Part shown: piece by piece, positions 440 to 16,055 of the stretch
Layout of the letters: the number at the start of each line of letters is the position of its first letter
Position numbering within the stretch: position 1 is the stretch's first letter
NCBI GenBank assembly: GCA_011800805.1
Contig: MPNW01000488.1
Span: forward strand, 37,461-101,460
DNA length: 64,000 nt
Direction of reading: 5' to 3'
Source: Hirudo medicinalis
Lineage: Eukaryota; Annelida; Clitellata; Hirudinida; Hirudinidae
Program-made: the position numbers and the translations under genes
Notes under the pieces: model-generated
What the model was told of the DNA's origin: nothing
Databases searched by the model: none
The model's input: only the letters and a program-made list of their open reading frames with translations

Positions 440-709
440 CTGCACAAGATGGGCACCTTCTCCTGCCGATTCAAGAGACTGACGTTGGAGTGCTGACAAT
501 TAGTGATTGAAATTATTAATGTACAATAAATAATAAATAATTAAACCATTAAATCATCTTACGTCAAAATACAGACTTCCAACAAAGTATGTGCTGAGGA
601 CTTTCAATGAAAGTTGCTTCTTGTTCGGCATGTTGACGTTGACACGTTCGTGATAGTCGTTGTAGAGACGGAAGTATTGCGACAGAGTCTTCAATGAGAC
701 ATGTGAGTC
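440..709 (-). CDS. Two orphan exons, possibly from a thioester-domain end
   Basis: The exon at 563-709 is a 49-codon open frame with a good acceptor (ATCTTAG) and donor (GTAAGA), phase 0 at both ends. The next exon, 440-492, is also bounded by AG and GT and joins in frame. The peptide has VSLKTLSQYFRLYNDYHERV followed by a strand-rich stretch and then NVSLLNRQEKVPILC. This weakly resembles the last helix of an alpha-2-macroglobulin thioester domain running into the second half of the CUB domain. No matching 5' exons exist between here and 8.6 kb on this strand. It could be an unrelated gene whose 3' part lies off the left edge, a gene fragment, or an assembly misjoin. The splice-bounded open frames are what I see; the family is inference. 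Confidence 0.4.
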
Positions 710-1304: not shown

Positions 1305-4300
1305 ATGGTAATTACAGTGCAGTANGCTAGTGACGCAAACACGGAAATAATTTATCGCTTAATTATTTCAACTTATTTTGAATTTAGTTGATTATTTCAT
1401 GCATTTCATTTAATTTTCAGAGTTTCGGAACAATACAATTACTACTGCTGATTGCTTGTTTTCATCAATCTATAACTGAAGAAATACAAGAAGGTAATAC
1501 TCTGTCACCTTAACTTTCAAATACTCATCCGTTTTGTAATTTCGATTCCAAGTCATTACGACAAGATTTACAAAATAGAGGCGGGTGTGATGTAATGATA
1601 TTGTAGTATCAAATGTTCACCTGCGAAATGATAGATTTGAAATCGATTGCAGTAAAAACACGATGGATCTACAATAACAAGAACAACAAAGCAAAGTCAT
1701 TGCCAGACATCATCGAATTCGACCTTGAACTTGAAAGTGGTAAAATAACCTTGAATCTCCTCAAACAATCGACGGGGTTAACTAAGCCGCCTTTGATAAT
1801 AGCCGAGTCAGAAGGTCAAAGTTCACTTTGGAAACAACCCGAAGACGAAGTTAGTAATTGTATTATGAAATAAAATGTGATTTTTAAGCATAATATATTG
1901 TTATTTATTAATGCAATGCTCGATCGAACTAACATTCGAATTTCGTCTTAAATAGATTTGAGGGATGTCCCAGCATTTGAAATATGAAAACTTTGTTTAA
2001 GATCGAAATTTGATTATTGATTTAAGTTCTTGGGCAATTATAAAGATTCCTCCCTCGAAGCCTTTGCTACAGTGATCACCAAGAATGTCGACGGAAATGA
2101 AGAAACCCTTTACGTGAGTCAATCACAACATTCGAATTCACCCCTAATAAGACCACCTGAATGAATATTTTTACTAAATTATTTTTTACATGTAGCTTTT
2201 ATTTTAAAAATTATTTTTATTAAATACGAACCTTTATTAATTTTTTTAAAACCTTTTTAAAACCTTTATTACCAATATTTAATTAACTCATTCAGCTGAT
2301 CACATTTACTCATGATGAGAAAACGGTTTCTTTGGGACCTAGCACGATCTTTTCAAAAGATCATTTTATGGACAATACAGAGCAAGTTGCAATTGCAGAA
2401 AACATCAAGAAGGGTGGTGAGAGCAATAACAACAAAGATAATAAGGACAAAATTCTCAAAATTGATGGCATACTTCACTCACTCCATGAAACCAAATCAA
2501 TCAAGTCAAAGCATAATATTCTCCAAGGTGAAGTTAGCTTTAATTGCCATGATGTTATTAATGACTAATAAACACACATGAAACAAATACGTTGATAAAT
2601 AAGTGAAAATGGCAAAAATATGCAATGTATTATTACGTTATATTTCATTTTGATGTCATATTATAACAAATATCATTTTAATAAGGAAACTCAATTTCAA
2701 TTACTAATAACCGGAGTATACATTCTGATAAATATTTTGGTTCGTAACTATTGCAGCATTTGTGATTATCACTTTATAATGTAATATCCAATATTGTAAC
2801 AATTGTTTCAGATTATGCGAATGGCATGATGAATGAATCGAGAATTATGAAAAGAGCGATTAAAAATAAGAAGAGACTGATGACAATTGAAATATTCACA
2901 GTCATAGATCATACCATTATTGAAAGGTGAATATTTTAATTGATTGTTGCTTGAGGAACACACAGACTTAATAAATTTGATAACTTGTTAAATTATTTTA
3001 TCCATAAAGTCAATATAATTCGACCTTGTTTAAGGTTATCCAAATTAAGTGAGGCCACTTCTAAAGAAGAAAAAATTCAAAATTAAAAAAAAACTGCACG
3101 ATATCTTTTCACTCACATCATGGAAGGAGTACGTTTTGAATGGAATCAAAGGATAATACCAAAGCTAATATCACTAGTCTAACAGTGATATTTGAGATTC
3201 CTATTGATATCGATGCCATTTTATTTATGAATAAAACCGTATAACAGCAAGAGAAGTATTATGAAAAATATCGGTTTTATCGGTGCTAGATGTTAAAATT
3301 CTTATTTACAAAAAAATTAATCATTTATTTGAATGTATAAAGGTGAAAAATATTTACGAGAAAATCGATATCGATGGTTTAAAGTTCACCACAAAGTGGG
3401 TCGGAGCATATTTCGCTTCAGTAAGTGTTGATGATTGTGCTATTAATAACTAAATAGTTATTATTTTAGTTGTGTTATGTGATTATGATTGCCCATACTT
3501 TGAAGAGTTTGTTAACGTTGAATCTAATTATTTTTGTTTAACCAATAAAACCATCAAATGATTAATTCATAAATTCAATCTGATGGAGTTCATTAAAATT
3601 TGAATTCTCCATTTTCAGAATTCTTCATATTCACGATTCATAGAAAGATCATTGTATGAAAATGGCACCATTAATTCTGCTATAATTTTAAATCGTTTAG
3701 ACGATTGGGTTTCAAGTCGAAATCAAAAAAAAATGGCCGAAGTACGATTTCCTTGCTGCTTTCACAAGGTTAATGATTATTGATTTGATAATCACAGCTA
3801 TTCCATACTATTACTAGTCGAAAAAATATTACATATAAATGTGATTCAAAAGCTCACGCATTATTGCATTTTCCAAATATCATCTTTTTAGCCTTGGTAT
3901 GTCATCTGGATGGAAGCATTTCGTTGGCCTTGCATATCTGGACGCCATTTGCCGCTCCTCAAGCCTTGGAATCATCCGATATAAAACATTCTACGATACA
4001 ATAAAAGTGACAGCGCATGAGCTTGGACACTCGTGAGTTTGAGTATTTATTCATGATAATTTATTTGAAAGTTATGTGAAGTTTCTTAATTGGAATGAAT
4101 TAACGTTTCTTTAATTTCAAAAATAAAATAAAATCTATTTCTCAAAAGCCTGGGTATGATTCACGATGGTGAAAACGAGTGCAAAGAAGACGATAAATTC
4201 ATCATGGCAACTTTCATAGGCTCATATGCAAGCGATGACATCCACAATTCTTTTTTATTTTCAAATTGTTCACTCGGAACATTAAATTTCACTATTCAAA

Positions 4301-7300
4301 ATCTGGCTGACATGGTAGATGATATGTAAGTGAAGAATTTATTTCTTGCATAAGGCAGATTGTTTGGCCTTGAGAATTATGAAACATTAATTGCCTTTTA
4401 AATAGAATATATAGAACAACCAAATATTCTCTTGCCCAATTATAAATAGGACGATAATTAAAACTATTGTCAAAGTACTGATAATTTACAAATAATTAGC
4501 AAAATGGTTTCGGTAAATTAAGTAATAATGCTTCTTATCCTCACATGGTTTTTATCTTTTTATCAGAAGTCCTGAAGAAACTGCTCGTCGTTTAGCAAAA
4601 CGGAAATACAATTGTTTGATAAAAGGCAATGACGATTTTAACAGTGGTCGAGAGAAAGACATCTTTCTACGTTTATATCTAGGACGAATATTTGATCTTG
4701 ATGATCAATGCAAGTTGGCATTCGGCCCAAAGTCTCTCCATATAGGCGTATCTATTCATTATATTTTTATATTTATTTTAAACTTAATTGCATTGTTTCG
4801 ATAAAAAATCGAAATAAATCACATTTGATAATCGGATGGTCAGTGTAGATTTTCGAATGATTATCTAAATTTTTATAATGATAAATTATGAAAGTTTACC
4901 AATTGCATTACTAATCAAATTAAGGGCTATGAAGTTGGCCAGGGAGTATGCCAGGAGCTTAAATGCACAAACAGTACTCACTTCATGAAGACAATGGATG
5001 GAACCACCTGTTCAAATGGGGCTTGGTGTCAAATGGGGAAATGTGTACTTGACATTAGGGCTCCACGAGCTCCAGGTAAATAAAAGTAATATTATTGGCA
5101 TTTCCTGTAGTAATTGGCAAAATGGATCAACAATAAACTATAGGTTTACCTCAGCTAATTGGTGATAATACTTAATTACGATTATCATTACTAAATAACA
5201 AACAATTAAATAAAATGAGGATTTTTATTAGGACGTTGGAAAAGTTTTAATAAGTGACTTTATCTGCTATCCAGTTATCATTTTGTAATTTGTCAACTGT
5301 CAACTGTCGCTATTGTAAAAGTAACAACGTTGTCCACATATTCACTATCTGATTTTATAGAGCACTGCGTTAACGGTGACAACGTAGTACCACATCTAAA
5401 CAAGACGTGCAAAGATGAAGTCAACGACGACCCAAACAGGTGCGAGGTGAAATCAAACAAGGACAGATGCTGTGCATCATGTGCAGGAAAGCGGAAAAGA
5501 AACGGAGGTGAAATTTTTTCCTCGTAGATTTATTAAACAGAAAATTTATGCAGTTACAAAACCCTCATGATTACAAGCATAATCACAAATTTTGTAAAAA
5601 AAAAAAAAGGACAGCCCGAAGGGATAGACTCCCTTCCTGTTGCCTGTTCCAATGTAAGAATTAAAGCCGAATCTCACAAAAAATACCTAAATCAGCAATT
5701 CAACAAATGAAAATTGACGCCAGAAAATCCACATGAGACGATTTTACTTATTTAAAATATTTGTAAATATGATTTGTAAGTATGTTTGAATATAGATATG
5801 GACTTAGAGGATGTAATGGTGACGGGAATTTAAGAAAATATACGAAGACCAGAGCACTTCAATGAACATTTTTTGAGCATAGTTCAAAAAGCTTCAGGTC
5901 TATATTTATCAGCGGACCGCAAACAGTAAGAATGAATATCAGATGAACATAAGTCCAATTTTCTTAAGAGAATGGCGTGATTAACAGTGTCGAACGCTTT
6001 CAACAAGTCCAGGAACATACCGACGGAAAATTTATTTTGGTCGATTGATTCAACAATTTTGGTATGAAGATGTATCAGCGCCATGGAAGTTGAGTGACCT
6101 TTTCTGAATCAGAATTGGTCGTCAGATATCATGGAAAATTTACTGAGGTATTCGTAGAGCCTTGTATGCATTACTTTCTCAAAGAACTTTGAAAAGTAGA
6201 TCCTGATGTAATGGTAACAGCGTTAATTGGCGTGCAGGTTGGCCGAATGGGTTGCGTTCCTGCATGCGGTCGTAATAGCAACAGTCGCTATGTGTCGCGT
6301 TCGCACCCCACCCTGCACCGCCAGGGAGCGCCCTCGGGTAGGGGCGCTATATAAATGGTAGATCGATTAAGAAAGTGCCTTCACATCCTGTTGGGGATAC
6401 GTAGGGCACTCAAAAAATCGGCTAAATACAAATAACAATTTTATATTCAACCTTAACAGCATTTTTAAGCCCGTGCATTGTCATTAAAATATATTTACTT
6501 TTCAACAACTGATAAAAAACATTTAATTCGACAAACAGGTTGTCAAGACACCTTAGATGTATGTTCCAGGATTGTGCCGAGGGACTGCTACAGCAAATAT
6601 TATGCTACCACGTGCTGCAGAACCTGTCGTGTTCTTATTGAGAATCCATGGGATGCCAACTGTCTCTATGGAGACAAAGGTGATGGCTGCTCAGACCTGG
6701 TACCCGAAGTGTGTCGCCTCTCCACTCGATATTGTTGTCAAACATGTGCTGTTCATCTAACACCAACAAAAACAACTTACAACACTTCTGTCTCATCTTC
6801 CAAAAAAAGGACAAATAATGCTTCACTCACAAGTTTGACTTGAATATTTCATTTTGACTCATAGCTAAATCAATCACATGAGAATTCTTGCAGATTCCTG
6901 TGACCAAGGAGACTTCAACGGCACTTTGGATTACTTCACCCTTTCGGACGAAAATTTGTCCTTAACTTGCAAGGAATTGGTTGAACGTGATTCCCATCTC
7001 TGTCATTACGATGTTGTGCGGAAGCATTGCTGCGCTTCTTGCAAGAATGTAGAAATTATTAAAGGTGAATCTATACGTTTTTACCGAGATCTAAGCATTA
7101 ATAAAAATGGTTTCAATTTTATTAAAACAAAACAACATCTTTTAACTCTGCAGTATAATGAATACTTAATTAAAACAGTAATTTGAATCTGTTGGATTTA
7201 TTTTAAGGTTACTGCGAACGTGATGATGACAAGAAAGAGCTGACCTACCTCTACAAGAAATTCAATTGCAGACAATTGGTGGATTATAATCCTCGCCTAT

Positions 7301-7374
7301 GCGAGATTAACGCAAAAGTTAAAATTCAGTGCTGTAAATCATGTGGACGGTTTATCATTACAGCGAAAAACTGA
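1305..7374 (+). CDS. Secreted ADAMTS-like zinc metalloprotease with five PLAC-like modules
   Basis: Seventeen exons in consistent phase give about 819 residues: 1305-1307, 1421-1493, 1653-1849, 2027-2113, 2296-2527, 2812-2926, 3035-3132, 3343-3420, 3619-3768, 3892-4032, 4149-4325, 4567-4747, 4925-5075, 5361-5507, 6539-6832, 6894-7064 and 7208-7374. Exon 1 is only the ATG; exon 2 gives the signal-peptide core (TIQLLLLIACF). A propeptide ends in a basic site (MKRAIKNKKR), followed by the M12B catalytic domain with the zinc motif HELGHSLGMIHDG split between exons 10 and 11 and an IMAT Met-turn. An ADAMTS-type cysteine-rich region follows (exon 4925-5075), then five six-cysteine modules of the form C..C..C..CCxxC. 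No thrombospondin type 1 repeat is visible. The likely role is a secreted extracellular protease; substrate unknown. Two exons (3035-3132 and 3619-3768) need one base removed from an A run to stay in frame, so the gene is either mis-sequenced or damaged. AATAAA lies at 7459-7464. Confidence 0.8.
5884..6084 (-). mobile_element. LINE reverse-transcriptase fragment in an intron
   Basis: On the minus strand, inside the metalloprotease intron 5508-6538, an open frame carries the reverse-transcriptase signature FLDLLKAFDTVNHAILLRKL, typical of non-LTR retrotransposons (F-D-L-K-A-F-D-x-V-x-H block). Only about 65 residues remain, with no flanking RT blocks in frame, so this is a truncated dead copy inserted antisense to the host gene. 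Confidence 0.75.
6230..6365 (+). mobile_element. tRNA-derived SINE
   Basis: The stretch has a Pol III A box (TGGCCGAATGG, 6240-6250) and, about 50 bases on, a B-box-like GTTCGCACCC (from 6299). A short body ends in GGGGCGCTATATAAATGG (6341-6358). That terminal motif, as its reverse complement, recurs at 49.4 kb and in a degraded form at 37.3 kb, which supports a dispersed family. Confidence 0.6.
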
Positions 7375-7474: not shown

Positions 7475-8517
7475 AAGAATGTATGGGCTTCAAATGCATT
7501 GTAATGATAATGAAAATTTTATAAATGTAATAATTTTAACGAAACTAGGATTTTAAAGTTGTCGCACAAACTCAAAGTAAACGAAGCTTCTCATTAATTG
7601 GTTTAGAAGACGGTGTGAATGATGACCACTTATTCCTTTCACCGCTTGATCAATGATGCTTCATTTTATTTCAGGAAACTTTCTCATAACAGTCAACCAT
7701 TCACAAATACAAAGGAAATCGTTTGTTTCAAGAACACGTGAAATAAATTAAGTTTAATAGAATGTGAAATATAGTCAGGACGGAAACCATGAGGACACCC
7801 CATTATTTCGTGATAACTCGCTAAACAAAAATTTGATTGTGAGGAAATTGTAGCATGTTGTGTAATTATATATTTGCGATTATCTCTTAAATTTTCGTTA
7901 AGTTATTTTCACTGCATTCATTTAAAAATTCAGAAAACGTGATTTCCAATAACCATGAAAGACACTTTCAAAAATCATCGTAAATGACTAAAATCTCGCG
8001 TAAAACAAGAAAAAAAAATTATTAATAAGAAATAATGTTTTCTTTATTCTCAATAACTTTGAAACATCTGTTATCCAATATATAATATTTGTTATCAGAA
8101 ATCCCCTCTCAACTCATCGAGTCTAAATATCATATCCGATCTTCTCAATTTTTCATTAACAATTTCATATTGTTGCAATCACATTTTAAAACTTTGTCAC
8201 TAACTGTGACTTGTTAATGGGAAACTTACAATAAAAAATTGAGAAAATTGAAAAGAAAATTAAGATATAAAGGCATGAATATAATTATATTTGATTATAA
8301 ATTATGCGACGATATTATATTGTGTATATATATATATATAGTTAGTTTTAGTTTTTCAATTCATTTTTCAATTCCTTTTAGTTTTCAATTCATGGGTCTT
8401 CATCCTCACAACTCGTAATCTCATCATTTTTTTCCACTCATTTCACCACTTTTAGTCTCGATCCTTCCAATGTTTTGTCGATGCAATCAAGCAAGAAAGT
8501 AGTTTGCAGATGAAATG
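7475..8517. other. Intergenic space between two convergent genes
   Basis: AT-rich, with a short TA repeat around 8324-8340 and no supported exon. It separates the 3' end of the metalloprotease (+) from the 3' end of the macroglobulin-family gene (-). Confidence 0.4.
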
Positions 8518-8523
8518 TTTTAT
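8518..8523 (-). terminator. Poly(A) signal of the macroglobulin-family gene
   Basis: TTTATT on the plus strand reads AATAAA on the minus strand, about 110 bases past the stop codon at 8631-8633. Confidence 0.55.
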
Positions 8524-8630
8524 TGCAGTAAATTTAAAGAAATTAATTTAATTCAATGTCAAGTAAATGAAATTTAAGCCAAAATTCAAGGAGCTTAATC
8601 AACATTTTCATTGGATTTCTTGCTCATTGG

Positions 8631-11600
8631 TTACTTCTGCTTGATTTTGTGGATGACCTTCTACAATAAAAGAAACCAATCAATAAAATATTATAATAAT
8701 ATTATAATATATGCAGATAATATATATTTGTACTTCTTGCATTTCTTGATCAGCTTTTACAACAAAATGAGTCAAATATAACAGTTATAAAAATATTTTT
8801 AAAAAAACATTTGAGCAATTTATTTTCAGGAAATATTCAATTTCTTACTGCATAATTAGCACTTATTAATTTCACTAAGGAAAGTATTTATTGCTCACCT
8901 GGACCACAAACCCAACCACGACCAGGAGGGTGATGACAGAGGCGAGGTTTCCCATCAAATCCATCCACACACGACCATCTTCTGGGTCTTCAGGCTTGCT
9001 GGTGGTTGCTGAACATAAGTCCAGCGACGGTGGTGCTGTTGACCCATCTGAACCTGCGGCAACAATACATGTTTTTAGTTATCGAAATATTTGTGAAAAT
9101 GTATTCAACCAGAAGTTAGTAACCCAACAATTGTGGATAAAAACCTTATAACAATTAATGCAAAACAAATTAAATTTAGGAAAAAATAAGCAAATGCTGC
9201 TGATAAACTTATTACTTCCGCTCAATCATCATCATGCTTGACAATTACTTAACCTTACTTATTAATAACAGGTAACTTATAAATAACCTAACCTTTTTTC
9301 ATTAATAGGGACAAACTAACCATTTGTTGTCGTGCTTAAAAGTGCCTTAAACATTGCTTAACCAAAATTATAAATATTACTTCTATTAATTTTTTTTCCA
9401 TAAAAATAGATTTAAGAAAATTCACCTGTAACGATCTCCACTTTGTATTGGAAATGAAGAATGTGATTAATGATGTACGTAGCTGTCCTTTTGTAGATCA
9501 GTTCCTTGCTTCTTTCTTCCGCTTCAACTGTTGTCAAATAATCTTGGGCTGGTTCCAGGATCTGACTCTCACCTTGACAGTCGTATTGTACATACTGATG
9601 AGACGTTAATTGATTTATCATTAACATTTAACCACAAGTATTTCTTTATGCATTCCTTAGCAAAATGAAAATGACGACTCACGTAAATTTTCTCTTTGAA
9701 TTCATTAAGCTTCATCTCGGAGACGAGAGTTGTGATTCCATTGTCACTTTCAAAGTGTCCAACAACCTTTAAAAATAAATTATAAATTAAATAAATTGTT
9801 TACATTTTATTTTAAATAGAGTCACAATTAAATGTGTCATGCAATAGTAACTTTAAAAGAGAACTTGATTTAAATTCATTCGAGTCAAAAATTTAAAATT
9901 TCACGTAAAATTCTCAACCAAGTGTGACACCCGACTGAAATTCCAACATTCAAACCAAACGTGCATTCCATGATAACTGCGCAATACCTCCTCTGTTGAA
10001 TGAAGCCAAGTTCTTCCTTGTCCCCTGAGGGGAGTTTCTCTTGTCATTTTTAGCCAGTTCTTGTGTGTTCTTTGAAGTGTAATTTTAAGCTCTGACTCCT
10101 TGCACTGTAGGGGCAGGCTGATTATATCAGGGAGCGAGCTTGTAGTTTTACGTATGTAGGTGAAGGAAGGAACTACTGTAATTAAGTTTTAATTAATGTA
10201 TTATAATTCAATTTTAAAGTTTTCAATGGTTTCATGTTGTTAATGTTTGGCATACAAAAATCTGTCATTAAGCTTGATCTACTTTTAATCTACTAACCGT
10301 TAATTGCATTCAGCAAACCATCATTTTCAACATTTTCAACATTTTCTTCATTTTCTTCCGTTTCATCATCTTCTTCCTGCTCTTCATGAATTTCCTCAGT
10401 CACTTTGAAAAAAGATACGTGACAATTTTAGTTAACTTCGATTGTTTGCAAAATTAATCAATTTGTCAACAACAACAGCAATAACAAAATTAATGAAGAT
10501 TTTAAAAAAGGCAAGTTACCGTTCTTCATGTGAGCTCTTTCCGACTTTTCGATTGGGATTGTGATGTCGAGGACTTGTTCTAAGTTGAAATTGTCCAGTA
10601 ACAAACTTTTTGATGGCACCACTTCATATCTTTGGTACTACGACAAACATTTAATTTTATTTTTAATTGAATTAATTTCAACATTTAGTTATTTAAACTG
10701 TCATTTAAAATAAATAAAAAATGTCAAAGCCTACTTTAAGTTCGACAGACGAGTTGAGTTTGTGGTGAACTTCGTCGGAGATGACTTCCACTTGAAACTG
10801 AAGAAGTTCTTGTGCTGCTGGTGATGTCTTCAATGGAACTGTTACCACTTCCAACTTCATAGGTTTCAACTAAAGCGATCGATTAGTTGTTTAATTATTT
10901 AAGTTAATTATTTTGCATGAAATATTCGTAAAACCCACAACTACTTCTTTGCCCAAATGACTGCTTTCAATTTCCTTTTCTTCCATGCTTTGCATTCCAT
11001 GACGTTCTTTCACAGTCAATTGAACCTACAAACATTGTAAGATGATGCAATGTAGGATTTGTCTCTGTTTTCATCAAGTGTAATTTAAAACTTACTCTGG
11101 CTTCCTTATCCTGGTTGTTGAACAGGTGAACTTCCAAAACAACTTCCTCACCAAGTACCACGGATTCCGGATGTTTCAGTGAAGCCATAACTTTAGATGT
11201 GGACAGCAACTGAAAAACAAAATATAAAGTACTTTTAGTGCAATTTTTTTCTAATTTTCTGTATCACGGGAAATGTTAAAAGTTAACAAAATATTAAAAT
11301 GCCATACCTGCGCAGGTGTATCGGCGACAACGAGTCCTTTTCCAGGTGTGAGACCAAAAGCAGCAAGAGTGTAAAGTCTTGCTTCCTCGGGAAGTACAAC
11401 ATGAAGTTTCTCTTCGCCAGATGGTCTGAACAATTTTGTTCATTTTATTAAAAAAAAATTAATAAGAACAATTTAAAATAATTCTACAAATGATAATTAT
11501 TAGCTCAATGATACTCAATAAAAAAAACACGAAGAACTTACCCAACAGTGACATTGAGTTTCCACAGGTTCAAATCAAATTCTTCCACGGTATCCAAACC

Positions 11601-14600
11601 CGATGGTTCAAGGTCGTCCAGTGTTCCATTTTTGCGAATGGGAGTTGGCCATGGTTTGCCTGAAAGTTTTCAAAATCATTTTGAAATAATAATTATTATA
11701 AATTTAAGTTATGTTTAAGTATTTTTATTGTGCGTTGCACAAACGAATTGAAATCAACTCACTCGGGTCAACGAATAGGAGTCCGTCACTGAGCAGGAGA
11801 CTTCCCGATTCCTGTAAAATAATTAAAATATATAAAATTATTTATTTGTTTTAAATTGGTCACTTTATTTCAGTGATTCAACATCAACTCACATTGTGCA
11901 CTCTTTGAGAATCAGGAGCCAAGGAAGGAATGGTTGGAGTACTTTCACCAAACTCATCCATTGTTTGAGAGAATTGTGAAGAATTCAAGCTGCGAAGGTA
12001 TCTCAGCATTTTCTCATGAGTCTTGAAATAAAAATGTCAACAAATATGTCAAAAGAAATGATTATTGTTGATAACTGTCCAGCTAACCATAAGTTTGTGA
12101 AGTTGCTGTTCTTTTGGCTCAAAGACGAGAAGATCCGAAGTAGTGAGCAGATAAACACTGGTGAAGGGTTTTGCTTTTACAACCACTTCAACAACCTCTC
12201 CTGGTTCAGCAACTTCTGGTTTTACCAACACTTCCAGCTGAATTGAGTACGAATGATATGAAATTGTAATTAGGAAACAATTAAAAAAACACGATTATTC
12301 CTTACTGGACGTTCCTTTTCTTGCTCAACAACAAATCGGAGACTGTCAGAAAGGATTTCGTTGCTTGGACTGAGAACTTCAACAACGAGACTAGGATTGG
12401 ACAAAAGATGGCTGACATTTTGTGGGAGGACCAGAGAGAGATTGTGTTTTGTTGCTGGAGATGGAGCCACCAACTTTCCCGAGAGAACCAACCCTGATTG
12501 ACAGAAAATCTGGTAGAGGACCTCACTGGTGGGAAACGATGATTCGACTTTGACTTTCAGTGTATCACCGACCTGAAGTTAATATTCAGTAACTTAAATG
12601 ACTCTTGAAATAAATTTATAACAAAACTAATTTCACTCAGAACGACTTTTGGTGGTTTTGGATCCATCAAGACCTGCAGGAAGTGTCCATCTTTGTTTTT
12701 AGTGGAGAATGGCAGGATCTCTTCCAAGTGAGCTGTGACAACCTTACCAGATTCTTTGTCCTCAAATTGAGCCTGAAATATGATAGAAAAAAGGTTACCG
12801 CAAATAATTTTACGTATTTGCTAATATTCGGAAGACATCAAAATTTAAAAATTAATTTTACTTCGAGTACTAGTTGGTTGTCTTCCTTGGGAACCTTGAA
12901 TGAAAACTCGCCGAGGGAGTTTGGTTTGAGTTTCAGAGTGAGTTTCTCTTCTCTTGGACTTTCTGATGATGGAGTGTAGTGCTTGACCTTGACTGTCACC
13001 TCTTTCTCCTCAGAACTGAGTGGAAGAACTTCATCGACTGGTTTCAGAAAGACCTGATGTGAAATTTATGGATATGATCAAAGAACGTATAAACTTAAAA
13101 GCAAACATTCATTCTCTCACTTGTCCAACGTACGACAGACCAGGCTTGAAGATGACAGGAGTGAATTGGCTGAAGAACAAAACGTGAGATTGGTCGACGA
13201 AGGTGACAAGGACATTTTTGGTGACAGGAACCACCAGGTTTGATTTCTTTCCACCTTTACTTTCTTCCTCCTTCTCACCATCACTTTTTCTTATTTCTTC
13301 ACATAGAGGACGCGTTTCTTCCACCTTAACTGAGACTTTGATCTTGTGTCCTACCAGGGGTTCTTCTGTTTTCATGTTCAAAGCTTGTTTGATTTCATCA
13401 GGTTTCAATGAAAACTTTTTGTGACCAGCTTCGAGCTGTTGAAAATGCGGTTATCATTCAGTATCACCAAGTTTCAACATTTTGTAAGTGAATAAAATGC
13501 TTAGTTTCCTTCTACAGATAGCATCGTGATAGTCTCACCTCGACTGGAGGCAATGATCCTGCTTTTGAAGTGTTTCCAAGAGAAAGTTGCAGTTCCACTT
13601 TTCCTTTCAAAGGAACTCCAGAAGGAAGGCTAAATAATTCAAAATATAATATTATTAAGTAATAAATTGTGTATATTGCAACGATAAGAAGGACGGGAGA
13701 ACGAAACAATTACCTGGCTACCACACTGAAAACCAAGCTATGACTTTTGCTCTCATCACCTGAGAGAAGAGTGTGATACCTCGGAGATCTCACTTCAACA
13801 AGGAAGCATTCTTTATCTGAAAACATTTTGTGTTAATGTAGAATATATTGTACAAGAAAGCTGAAAATGCATCATAGTTCTAAGTATAGTATGTCCATGT
13901 GTATCCTTTAAATAATTTTCATACCGTAGGGTCCGACAGGTTTTTCAACTTTGAAGGTGCGGTTGACCATCTGGCCCTGAAATATAAAATATTAATCAGA
14001 TTATTAAGGTAACTGTGGCTTATTAAGTAATATCAATGCAATTGTGGACAACTGCTGATATTAATATAATATCTTAAAATTATTATAATAAAATTAATTA
14101 ACATAATAATGTAATTTTTGTCCTCACATGACTTTCCAAGGTGAGAGTCCATTCGTCTGACTGAGCAAGAAGAGGGACGAAGTATTCTTTTCTGAGGAGA
14201 CCTGAGAATCAAAAATAAAAATAAATAAATTTCACATAAATAGAGTATTTCACATTAAAATATTCGTATACAACCTTCTTTAGCGGTGACATTCGGCCAT
14301 TCGACCAGCAGCACGTGTTTTGGGTTCTTAAAAATTAAATGAAATTAATTTTAACAATTTGATATTTCTTATTTAATTGTGTTTTAAATTATGTACTTAT
14401 ATCTTACGTGGATTGAGAGGTTGACAGGTTTCAGGTGTGGTTTCAAATCTTGAGTGTGAACGAGAGACTCAACCATCACTGAAAGAAATATTTAATTATT
14501 CTTTACACACAAATTAAATTACTTTAATATTTAACAAACCAAGTTCTCCAGGGCGGTACTTCGGTTTATTAGTGCGCAAGGAAACCAGCAACTCCTTTCT

Positions 14601-16055
14601 TCCAGTTGAAACTTCGACTGAACGAGAGAACTTGAAGCAGGAACTTGACTCGACTTTCAAGACTGATTTGTTTCCTAACGACCTCTCTTCAGATGGTACC
14701 TGATCATCGAATTAGTAGGAATAAACGACAATTTCATGGGAAATAATGTGTAAAATAGAAATTTTATACTAACCAAGAATCTCAGTGTTTTGAAGAAGCC
14801 TGCAAAGTTAATTATGAATAGTTCAGAAGAACGTCATAATTCAGAGAAAAATTCACTTTTGGAGGTTTTGTCCAGTTCAATCTTCCAGGTAGAACGATGC
14901 CACAGATGGTCGTCAGCTGAAACACTGAGATCGAGGACGCATTCATACTTTTCCTTGTCTTCTTCCTTTATGTCAGATCGGACGAGATCGAGCAGGTGCA
15001 GGTCAATCAGGAATTCAGAGCCAGGTACGAGAACGTCGCTTGTAACGACGACGTAGGACCTGAAAAATTTATAAAGACATTAAAACTGTCACCTCAATNN
15101 NNNNNNNNNNNNNNNNNNNNNNNNNNNNNNNNNNNNNNNNNNNNNNNNNNNNNNNNNNNNNNNNNNNNNNNNNNNNNNNNNNNNNNNNNNNNNNNNNNNN
15201 NNNNNNNNNNNNNNNNNNNNNNNNNNNNNNNNNNNNNNNNNNNNNNNNNNNNNNNNNNNNNNNNNNNNNNNNNNNNNNNNNNNNNNNNNNNNNNNNNNNN
15301 NNNNNNNNNNNNNNNNNNNNNNNNNNNNNNNNNNNNNNNNNNNNNNNNNNNNNNNNNNNNNNNNNNNNNNNNNNNNNNNNNNNNNNNNNNNNNNNNNNNN
15401 NNNNNNNNNNNNNNNNNNNNNNNNNNNNNNNNNNNNNNNNNNNNNNNNNNNNNNNNNNNNNNNNNNNNNNNNNNNNNNNNNNNNNNNNNNNNNNNNNNNN
15501 NNNNNNNNNNNNNNNNNNNNNNNNNNNNNNNNNNNNNNNNNNNNNNNNNNNNNNNNNNNNNNNNNNNNNNNNNNNNNNNNNNNNNNNNNNNNNNNNNNNN
15601 NNNNNNNNNNNNNNNNNNNNNNNNNNNNNNNNNNNNNNNNNNNNNNNNNNNNNNNNNNNNNNNNNNNNNNNNNNNNNNNNNNNNNNNNNNNNNNNNNNNN
15701 NNNNNNNNNNNNNNNNNNNNNNNNNNNNNNNNNNNNNNNNNNNNNNNNNNNNNNNNNNNNNNNNNNNNNNNNNNNNNNNNNNNNNNNNNNNNNNNNNNNN
15801 NNNNNNNNNNNNNNNNNNNNNNNNNNNNNNNNNNNNNNNNNNNNNNNNNNNNNNNNNNNNNNNNNNNNNNNNNNNNNNNNNNNNNNNNNNNNNNACGACG
15901 TAGGACCTGAAAAATTTATAAAGACATTAAAACTGTCACCTCAATTATCAAAACACACTTTCAACATACGTGTTGGACGTTGGGACAGCATGGAAGGCCA
16001 AACTGGAAGCCACGAACGCTGACAGCAAGAAAAGGCACAAAGGACTTCGTCCCAT
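8631..16055 (-). CDS. Alpha-2-macroglobulin/TEP-family membrane protein lacking a thioester domain
   Basis: About 29 exons, roughly 1190 residues. Exon 1 (15970-16055) encodes a signal peptide (MGRSPLCLFLLSAFVASSLA). The next (14857-15059) opens SYVVVTSDVLVPGS, the classic first macroglobulin (MG) strand. Further MG hallmarks follow in order: TNKPKYRPGEL (14540-14699), FKPGLSYVGQ (about 13.1 kb), SVYLLTTSDLLVF (12.1 kb), ESGSLLLSDGLLF (11.8 kb) and the LAAFGLTPGKGLVVADTPAQ block (11.3 kb). After the segment preceding the thioester domain (LDITIPIEKSERAHMKN, 10.5-10.6 kb) the family would normally show GCGEQ and about 300 residues of alpha/alpha barrel. Here an exon at about 10.3-10.4 kb encodes only an acidic linker, and later exons look beta-rich. 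The last exons give a hydrophobic segment (ASVITLLVVVGFVVQ, 8899-9053) and a basic tail, KVIHKIKQK, ending at 8631. I infer a type I membrane protein without thioester chemistry. The N gap at 15099-15894 lies in intron 1 and looks artefactual. Confidence 0.8.
10300..10402 (-). other. Acidic linker exon at the expected thioester-domain position
   Basis: This exon lies between the pre-thioester segment and the C-terminal part of the macroglobulin-family gene. Its ~35 residues are dominated by Glu, Asp and Asn (for example EEQEEDDETEENEENVENV). The introns on each side are only about 120 bases, too short to hide a thioester domain. Confidence 0.7.
15048..15945. other. Assembly gap with identical 51-bp flanks
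   Basis: The bases at 15048-15098 and 15895-15945 are identical and lie directly against the two edges of a 796-N run (15099-15894). This is the signature of two contigs that overlap but were scaffolded with an estimated gap. Collapsing the repeat joins macroglobulin exon 1 to exon 2 through a short intron, in frame. Confidence 0.85.

Follow-up and report, generated by a model that had tools for sequence, protein, structure and literature searches.

A probably constrained leech gene of the thioester-containing protein family in which an M12B-prodomain-like module and a membrane anchor very likely take the place of the thioester domain

The thioester-containing proteins (TEPs) of the alpha-2-macroglobulin (A2M) family are defined by the thioester and its domain (TED). 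In Mcr, C5 and ovostatin the motif or its cysteine has been lost and the domain kept, and CD109 keeps a TED with the thioester. Clearance of alpha-2-macroglobulin by its receptor needs the macroglobulin (MG) domain MG8. According to PMC5969219, every TEP sequence of Glossina m. morsitans contains both A2M_comp and A2M_recep. In this study we analysed a stretch of 64,000 nucleotides (the window) of the leech Hirudo medicinalis, C488:37461-101460 in a 133-Mb genome of 1557 contigs, which carries a TEP-family gene without a TED. Positions given below are those of the window, and paralogs are named by their contig (C538, C240 etc.). It is very likely that in this gene the TED, the second half of the CUB domain (CUB-C) and MG8 have been replaced by a linker, a module resembling the prodomain of M12B metalloproteases and a transmembrane exon, with the gene's own 3′ untranslated region (UTR) kept. 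The explanation that we favour as a whole adds to this architecture a membrane-tethered control of M12B proteases, and we give it a probability of about 45%. The gene is intact and probably constrained, its domain order was not met in the literature searched, and its function we only infer.

The TEP-family gene lies on the minus strand (16055..8631). Its 29 exons join in frame to 1187 amino acids and a stop, with GT-AG splice sites, and a spliced aligner fed with the 1187-residue protein gave the model back unaltered. The donor GTTCTG after position 12644 is weak; the frame is kept there. Among the first 23 exons, 20 are equal in length to those of C538. The features of the gene are:

15970..16055, minus strand: exon 1, putative signal peptide MGRSPLCLFLLSAFVASSLA; C538, C544 and C240 start alike
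15099..15894, no strand: assembly gap of 796 N within intron 1, with an identical 51-bp stretch on each side, probably an artefact
10735..15059, minus strand: exons 2-22, MG1-MG7 with the A2M bait-region domain
10520..10637, minus strand: exon 23, the beginning of CUB that precedes the TED, shorter by 7 residues than its C538 counterpart
10403..10519, minus strand: intron 23, 117 bp, site of the missing TED, CUB-C and MG8
10298..10402, minus strand: exon 24, acidic linker of 35 residues, 16 of them D or E, phase 1 at both ends; the C240 counterpart has 102 bp
9988..10175, minus strand: exon 25, first exon of the M12B-prodomain-like module, phase 1 to 0
9683..9766, minus strand: exon 26, second module exon, phase 0 to 0
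9426..9594, minus strand: exon 27, third module exon, phase 0 to 1
8899..9053, minus strand: exon 28, stalk and predicted transmembrane helix (LMGNLASVITLLVVVGFVV)
8631..8660, minus strand: exon 29, predicted cytosolic tail KVIHKIKQK and stop
8416..8592, minus strand: 3′ UTR, homologous to that of C538 (117 in local alignment, where 200 shuffles reached at most 46)

Pfam searches with the window protein gave matches above the cut-off for MG2 (residues 148-234), the A2M bait domain (514-635) and A2M/MG7 (748-837), and a match below the cut-off for MG4. MG1 and MG3, which Pfam did not name, were assigned by alignment and exon plan only. In the PDB, the MG part matched CD109 best (9fx2, E 3.6e-14), besides mosquito TEP1, A2ML1 and, weakly, C4. 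By these matches the gene carries an A2M/TEP-family scaffold with MG and bait domains in order. Neither the TED, the A2M receptor domain nor the LDLa domain was matched by Pfam in the window protein. A GCGEQ-like motif was absent from the six frames of the window, where a broader thioester pattern returned only GPGEQ, which lacks the cysteine and stands in an unused frame, and none of the 40 genome-wide Pfam matches to the TED (E ≤ 0.01) lies on C488. A preliminary description of the window, made from its letters, had proposed such a TEP-family MG scaffold of about 1190 residues, devoid of TED and GCGEQ, with an acidic linker of about 35 residues between introns of about 120 bp and with a membrane anchor, and in all of this it agrees with our results. 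The introns flanking exon 24 measure 117 and 122 bp, and hydropathy places the start of the most hydrophobic 19-residue stretch at residue 1159, where the nine-residue tail with four lysines that follows it argues for a helix. The proposal that the TED alone was lost needs to be widened: the TED is indeed absent, but measured against C538 everything from the start of the TED onwards is missing, 519 residues that comprise TED, CUB-C and MG8. The breakpoint of the join is not visible, the intron that spans it being too diverged.

One rival explanation is that TED exons of this gene exist but were omitted from the assembly or placed elsewhere. A remnant of TED exons was observed about 8 kb downstream of the TEP gene:

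440..709 (within 358-734), minus strand: TEP relic with the TED end, CUB and the MG8 start of another TEP copy

This relic, the N gap with its duplicated flanks, two single-N positions and the mixing of paralogous blocks that C544 may show speak for such an assembly artefact. However, the TED-end exon of the relic (709-563, 147 bp) is open but shortened, and its CUB exon (492-440, 53 bp) is out of frame. No N occurs between exons 22 and 29, the join is repeated in C240, where it is entered in the same phase, and the tail ends on a TEP 3′ UTR. We regard the artefact as very improbable. A contig missing between 10300 and 10640, which the preliminary description had considered, is likewise unlikely, since that stretch is free of N, C240 repeats the join and the relic is the sole TED-related match on C488. 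A missing exon inside the N gap was also considered and rejected. At the place of this gap C544 has a 65-bp intron, and together with the identical 51-bp flanks this means that no exon need be missing there. The single N bases, at 1325 and 18426, look like scaffold joins; the one at 1325 makes the order of 1-1324 relative to the rest less certain.

The tail of the window protein was compared with an M12B metalloprotease that is encoded in the same window:

1305..7371, plus strand: gene for an M12B (reprolysin, ADAMTS-like) metalloprotease, convergent with the TEP gene; its first ATG is at 1305
1653-1849, 2027-2113 and 2296-2527, plus strand: prodomain exons of the metalloprotease, with phases as in TEP exons 25-27

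Whereas the beta-rich C-terminal exons had earlier been taken as the rest of a TEP, they were found here to hold an M12B-prodomain-like module instead. Alignment with hhalign of a TEP-tail profile (window, C544, C240) and a prodomain profile (window protease, C467, C21) gave a probability of 95.8 and an E value of 7e-9 over 100 columns. Of the three prodomain loci, those of the window and C467 precede metalloprotease sequence; for C21 the catalytic domain was not read. In a control rerun the real profiles scored 56.6, a score that none of 200 column shuffles reached (maximum 18.7), and the reversed profile gave 12.0. Slices of the TEP paralogs (24 in number) scored at most 13.7, and the tail as a divergent MG8 or CUB was rejected on this account. 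The two inner introns lie between residues that pair in the alignment (63/64 with 66/67, 91/92 with 95/96) and have equal phases. Judged by profile, intron places and phases, exons 25-27 share their origin with the prodomain exons of the adjacent metalloprotease gene. The module begins and ends in phase 1, as shuffled exon cassettes usually do. A search of solved structures with the two module profiles returned chance-level matches only (best E 0.77 and 0.47).

Exons 24-29 show no start or signal peptide of their own by eye. Together with the fitting phases and the TEP 3′ UTR, this indicates that they belong to the TEP gene, and because the 3′ UTR is like that of C538, both ends of the gene are TEP-derived. 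The 3′ UTR of C560 also aligns to that of the window gene (86, shuffle maximum 47). The 3′ end of C240 was tried as the same UTR and left unused, as it is AT-rich and, with a score of 79 against a shuffle maximum of 63, not clearly the same. It could still be that the MG part and the tail are made as two separate products, for instance by retention of intron 23, since the read-through frame of exon 23 (open reading frame 10458-10637, minus strand) ends in the hydrophobic LILLLLLLLTN. This hydrophobic run derives from a T-rich intron, however, and the phases at intron 23 match, the join is kept in C240, and the tail exons lack a visible start; two products therefore seem improbable.

The neighbouring metalloprotease, whose gene model is incomplete in the middle, matched Reprolysin_5 (2.2e-10) and ADAMTS_CR_2 (1.5e-13) in Pfam, shows an HExxHxxGxxH site by eye and has cysteine repeats that are presumably ShKT-like. 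Its first prodomain exon was matched at no fewer than 25 genomic places, among them that of the window, with 87 of 168 candidates scored; contigs carrying an M12B prodomain exon include C498, C155, C1000, C285, C1043 and C8. With so many places, protease targets for the module may exist. At C433:147498-157879, M12B prodomain exons (minus strand) adjoin a thioester-less TEP gene (plus strand), about 5 kb from the TEP exons, so this kind of neighbourhood is not unique to the window.

TED exons were found on many contigs: the Pfam TED profile matched 40 times and the TED-MG8 block of C538 at least 107 times (83 of 105 candidates scored). The motif scan covered 66 loci. One group of TEPs carries GCGEQ, in C634 and C926, or GSGEQ, in C1266. 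In the latter (C1266:18075, L019) the thioester cysteine is replaced by serine in a motif region that is otherwise normal. A second group lacks GCGEQ and keeps a TED that starts with GHPLGP[SA]IEHVCQ, as read at C433, C508, C538, C544 and C560. Going by these motifs, loss of the thioester motif is ordinary among the TEPs of this genome. In the second group, the gene models of C538 (1475 residues), C560 (1468) and C508 (1435) are open from the signal peptide to MG8 and have no anchor. Over aligned residues, the unrelated tail included, the window protein is 66.9% identical to C538, 64.1% to C560 and 37.0% to C508. Protein libraries were searched by scoring the 7991 and 7992 candidates that shared most with the query. 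Among these, 2 and 17 relatives were found, which are locally 19-32% identical to the query and cover 6-80% of it.

Two paralogs share the module with the window gene. C240 has the order MG1-6, CUB-N, a 102-bp acidic exon entered in phase 1, the module and a hydrophobic end in another frame. Full loss of the TED combined with membrane anchoring had been described as unusual, and C240 qualifies this, as with the same order in a second gene it is not unique to the locus. In C544 a TED stands in front of a homologous module. Compared with C538, 14 of 15 windows of 150 columns in the TED block of C544 (~18022-16040) are 86-99% identical, introns included, and one is 75% identical; before the block identity is mostly 62-87%, with two windows at the 5′ end above 93%, and after it below 60%. 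The TED block of C544 thus probably comes from gene conversion by a C538-like gene, or from an assembly chimera. A loss of the TED from a C544-like ancestor was rejected for this reason, and C544 is no guide to the order of events. The tree of the MG part did not resolve (supports 59-66), which is expected with gene conversion. Further TEP pieces were recognised by match pattern: a shortened first TED exon beside the MG8 end at C893:34521-35217, TED end to MG8 with little upstream at C41:311991-313207, and scattered pieces at C55.

On the terminal branch of the window gene dS, the synonymous distance, is about 0.20 and the ratio of nonsynonymous to synonymous distance (dN/dS) is 0.24-0.30 (751 codons, six genes). 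No stop was seen in the first 936 codons, where 200 runs of a neutral branch of 0.2 brought 21 on average and never fewer than 11, and a branch of 0.05 brought 6 on average. In the tail exons, dS and dN are 1.6 and 0.36 between the window and C544 (91 codons) and 2.2 and 0.59 between the window and C240 (89 codons), a dN/dS of about 0.23-0.26; in the MG part dS is 0.5-0.6. By these distances the tail is old and the MG part has been evened out by conversion. The window gene is probably under constraint.

Several results weigh against our reading. C240 is damaged: it lacks the MG7 exons and contains frameshifts, among them one that gives the first module exon 189 instead of 188 bp. C544 has a TAG within the module, followed by N. 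The branch of the damaged C240 shows a dN/dS of 0.26-0.29, the same as that of the window gene, so dN/dS alone cannot tell a living gene from a recently dead one. Gene conversion among the paralogs blurs the branch estimates, and the dS method is a simple one, with values above 1.5 being rough. With PF01562, the Pfam profile of the M12B propeptide, no match was obtained in the tail of the window protein or in the prodomain of the protease next to it, and across the genome it gave no match, in a search in which no control matched either. As PF01562 misses both proteins, the name ‘prodomain’ rests on the place before the catalytic domain and on profile similarity within the genome. The KxKxx form at the end of the tail, discussed below, would arise by chance in about 1 of 6 cases given the composition of the lysine-rich nine residues. 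Exceptions to the behaviour of propeptides on which our proposal draws are known as well, as pro-ADAMTS9 is active and the ADAMTS13 propeptide is no chaperone according to PMC8275829.

Some of these points would suit a dying duplicate, a copy in a birth-and-death family from which the TED-MG8 block was deleted and whose frame is intact only for now. The damaged C240 with its equal dN/dS, the stop in C544 and the scattered TEP pieces at C893, C41, C55 and in the relic of the window all point that way. On the other hand, the 1187 codons are free of stops and frameshifts against the neutral means given above, and the tail, at a dS far above that of the MG part, still has a low dN/dS. We consider a dying duplicate rather unlikely.

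On the reading that we favour, the product would be a type I membrane protein with an MG1-MG7 scaffold outside the cell or in the lumen and the prodomain-like module beside the membrane. Lacking a TED, it would form no covalent bond to a target, and with MG8 the receptor-binding domain would be lost. Like free prodomains, the module may act in trans and bind one or more of the many M12B proteases of the leech at the catalytic domain. It would thereby inhibit, fold or retain them, while the MG scaffold may give reach or serve as a decoy bait. Such trans-acting control of M12B proteases, as inhibitor or as chaperone, is put forward tentatively, at somewhat less than even odds. KxKxx is a form of the endoplasmic reticulum (ER) retrieval motif. 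The KIKQK end fits this form, and the place of action may be the ER or cis-Golgi, although ER retrieval of the window protein appears doubtful. The fullest version of the proposal is also doubtful, namely a membrane-tethered macroglobulin in which the covalent trap was swapped for the prodomain of the controlled protease family and which is possibly retrieved by KxKxx, so that it guards or folds the expanded M12B set.

Published data are in part consistent with such a role. In the excerpt of PMC8275829, ADAMTS9 and ADAMTS17 are not secreted without their propeptide, a chaperone role is suggested for that of ADAMTS9, and alpha-2-macroglobulin is treated as an inhibitor of ADAMTS proteases. Recombinant ADAM12 prodomain was used for specific inhibition of ADAM12, as stated in PMC4609913. 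A purely structural role, in which a membrane MG protein acts in adhesion or as a barrier like insect Mcr and the module is a mere spacer, is a possibility of lower standing than protease control. Membrane-anchored TEPs without a working thioester do exist, as MCR combines a mutated site with a transmembrane helix, and the title of a reference in the available part of PMC7016707 calls MCR essential for septate junctions. However, the window protein has no LDLa domain by Pfam, the module is no random spacer but a relative of a protease prodomain, and its dN is well below its dS.

Some further observations were made around these loci. Just left of the window lies a Rab18-like gene (spliced by eye from L067) with 97% identity to one library protein and 78% to Helobdella robusta. 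No other named protein among the best 120 of 1036 matches exceeds 73%, so that by this gene, too, the host is most likely a leech. An element of about 250 bp at 7775-8022, on the 3′ side of the TEP gene, is 80% identical to L058 8852-9096 on the 5′ side of C544. A short dispersed repeat resembling a short interspersed element occurs at 6201-6360, at L067 6680-6805 and also in L012, L008, L063 and L065, and a stretch where C240 lost its MG7 exons resembles this repeat by eye. The cytochrome oxidase cluster on contig C459 (L071) looks bacterial and has no stops under code 11; the contig may belong to a symbiont or be a contaminant.

Among the papers listed by our literature search, which left most subscription journals outside, there was no report of a TEP without the whole TED or of a fusion of a TEP with an M12B prodomain. 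The intact frame of a TEP that is without TED, CUB-C and MG8 suggests that the MG1-MG7 scaffold can function by itself. The fusion would join two opposed systems, macroglobulin inhibitors and metalloproteases, both of which are multicopy families in this genome. M12B proteases and alpha-2-macroglobulin are both reported from the salivary secretion of the medicinal leech (PMC7191736). The fusion makes testable the idea that MG scaffolds are retargeted by exchanging the trap for a docking domain and, if true, would represent a new kind of protease regulator.

One of the nearest known systems is Mcr of insects and molluscs, with which the window protein shares the TEP family and the C-terminal transmembrane helix and which has a mutated thioester site; in contrast, Mcr has LDLa, as described in the part of PMC7016707 consulted, whereas the window protein is without LDLa, TED, CUB-C and MG8. 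CD109, the best PDB match of the MG part, is also a membrane-bound TEP. It is anchored by glycosylphosphatidylinositol according to PMC7016707; for the window protein a helix with a basic cytosolic tail is predicted. The paralogs C538, C560 and C508 have the exon plan and signal peptide in common with the window gene and, where compared (C538 and C560), the 3′ UTR, but they keep TED, CUB and MG8 and end without an anchor, the opposite of what is seen here. With the M12B (ADAM/ADAMTS) prodomains the module shares homology and equal intron places and phases; in the window protein, however, it stands at the C-terminal side, has no catalytic domain and is fused to MG domains.

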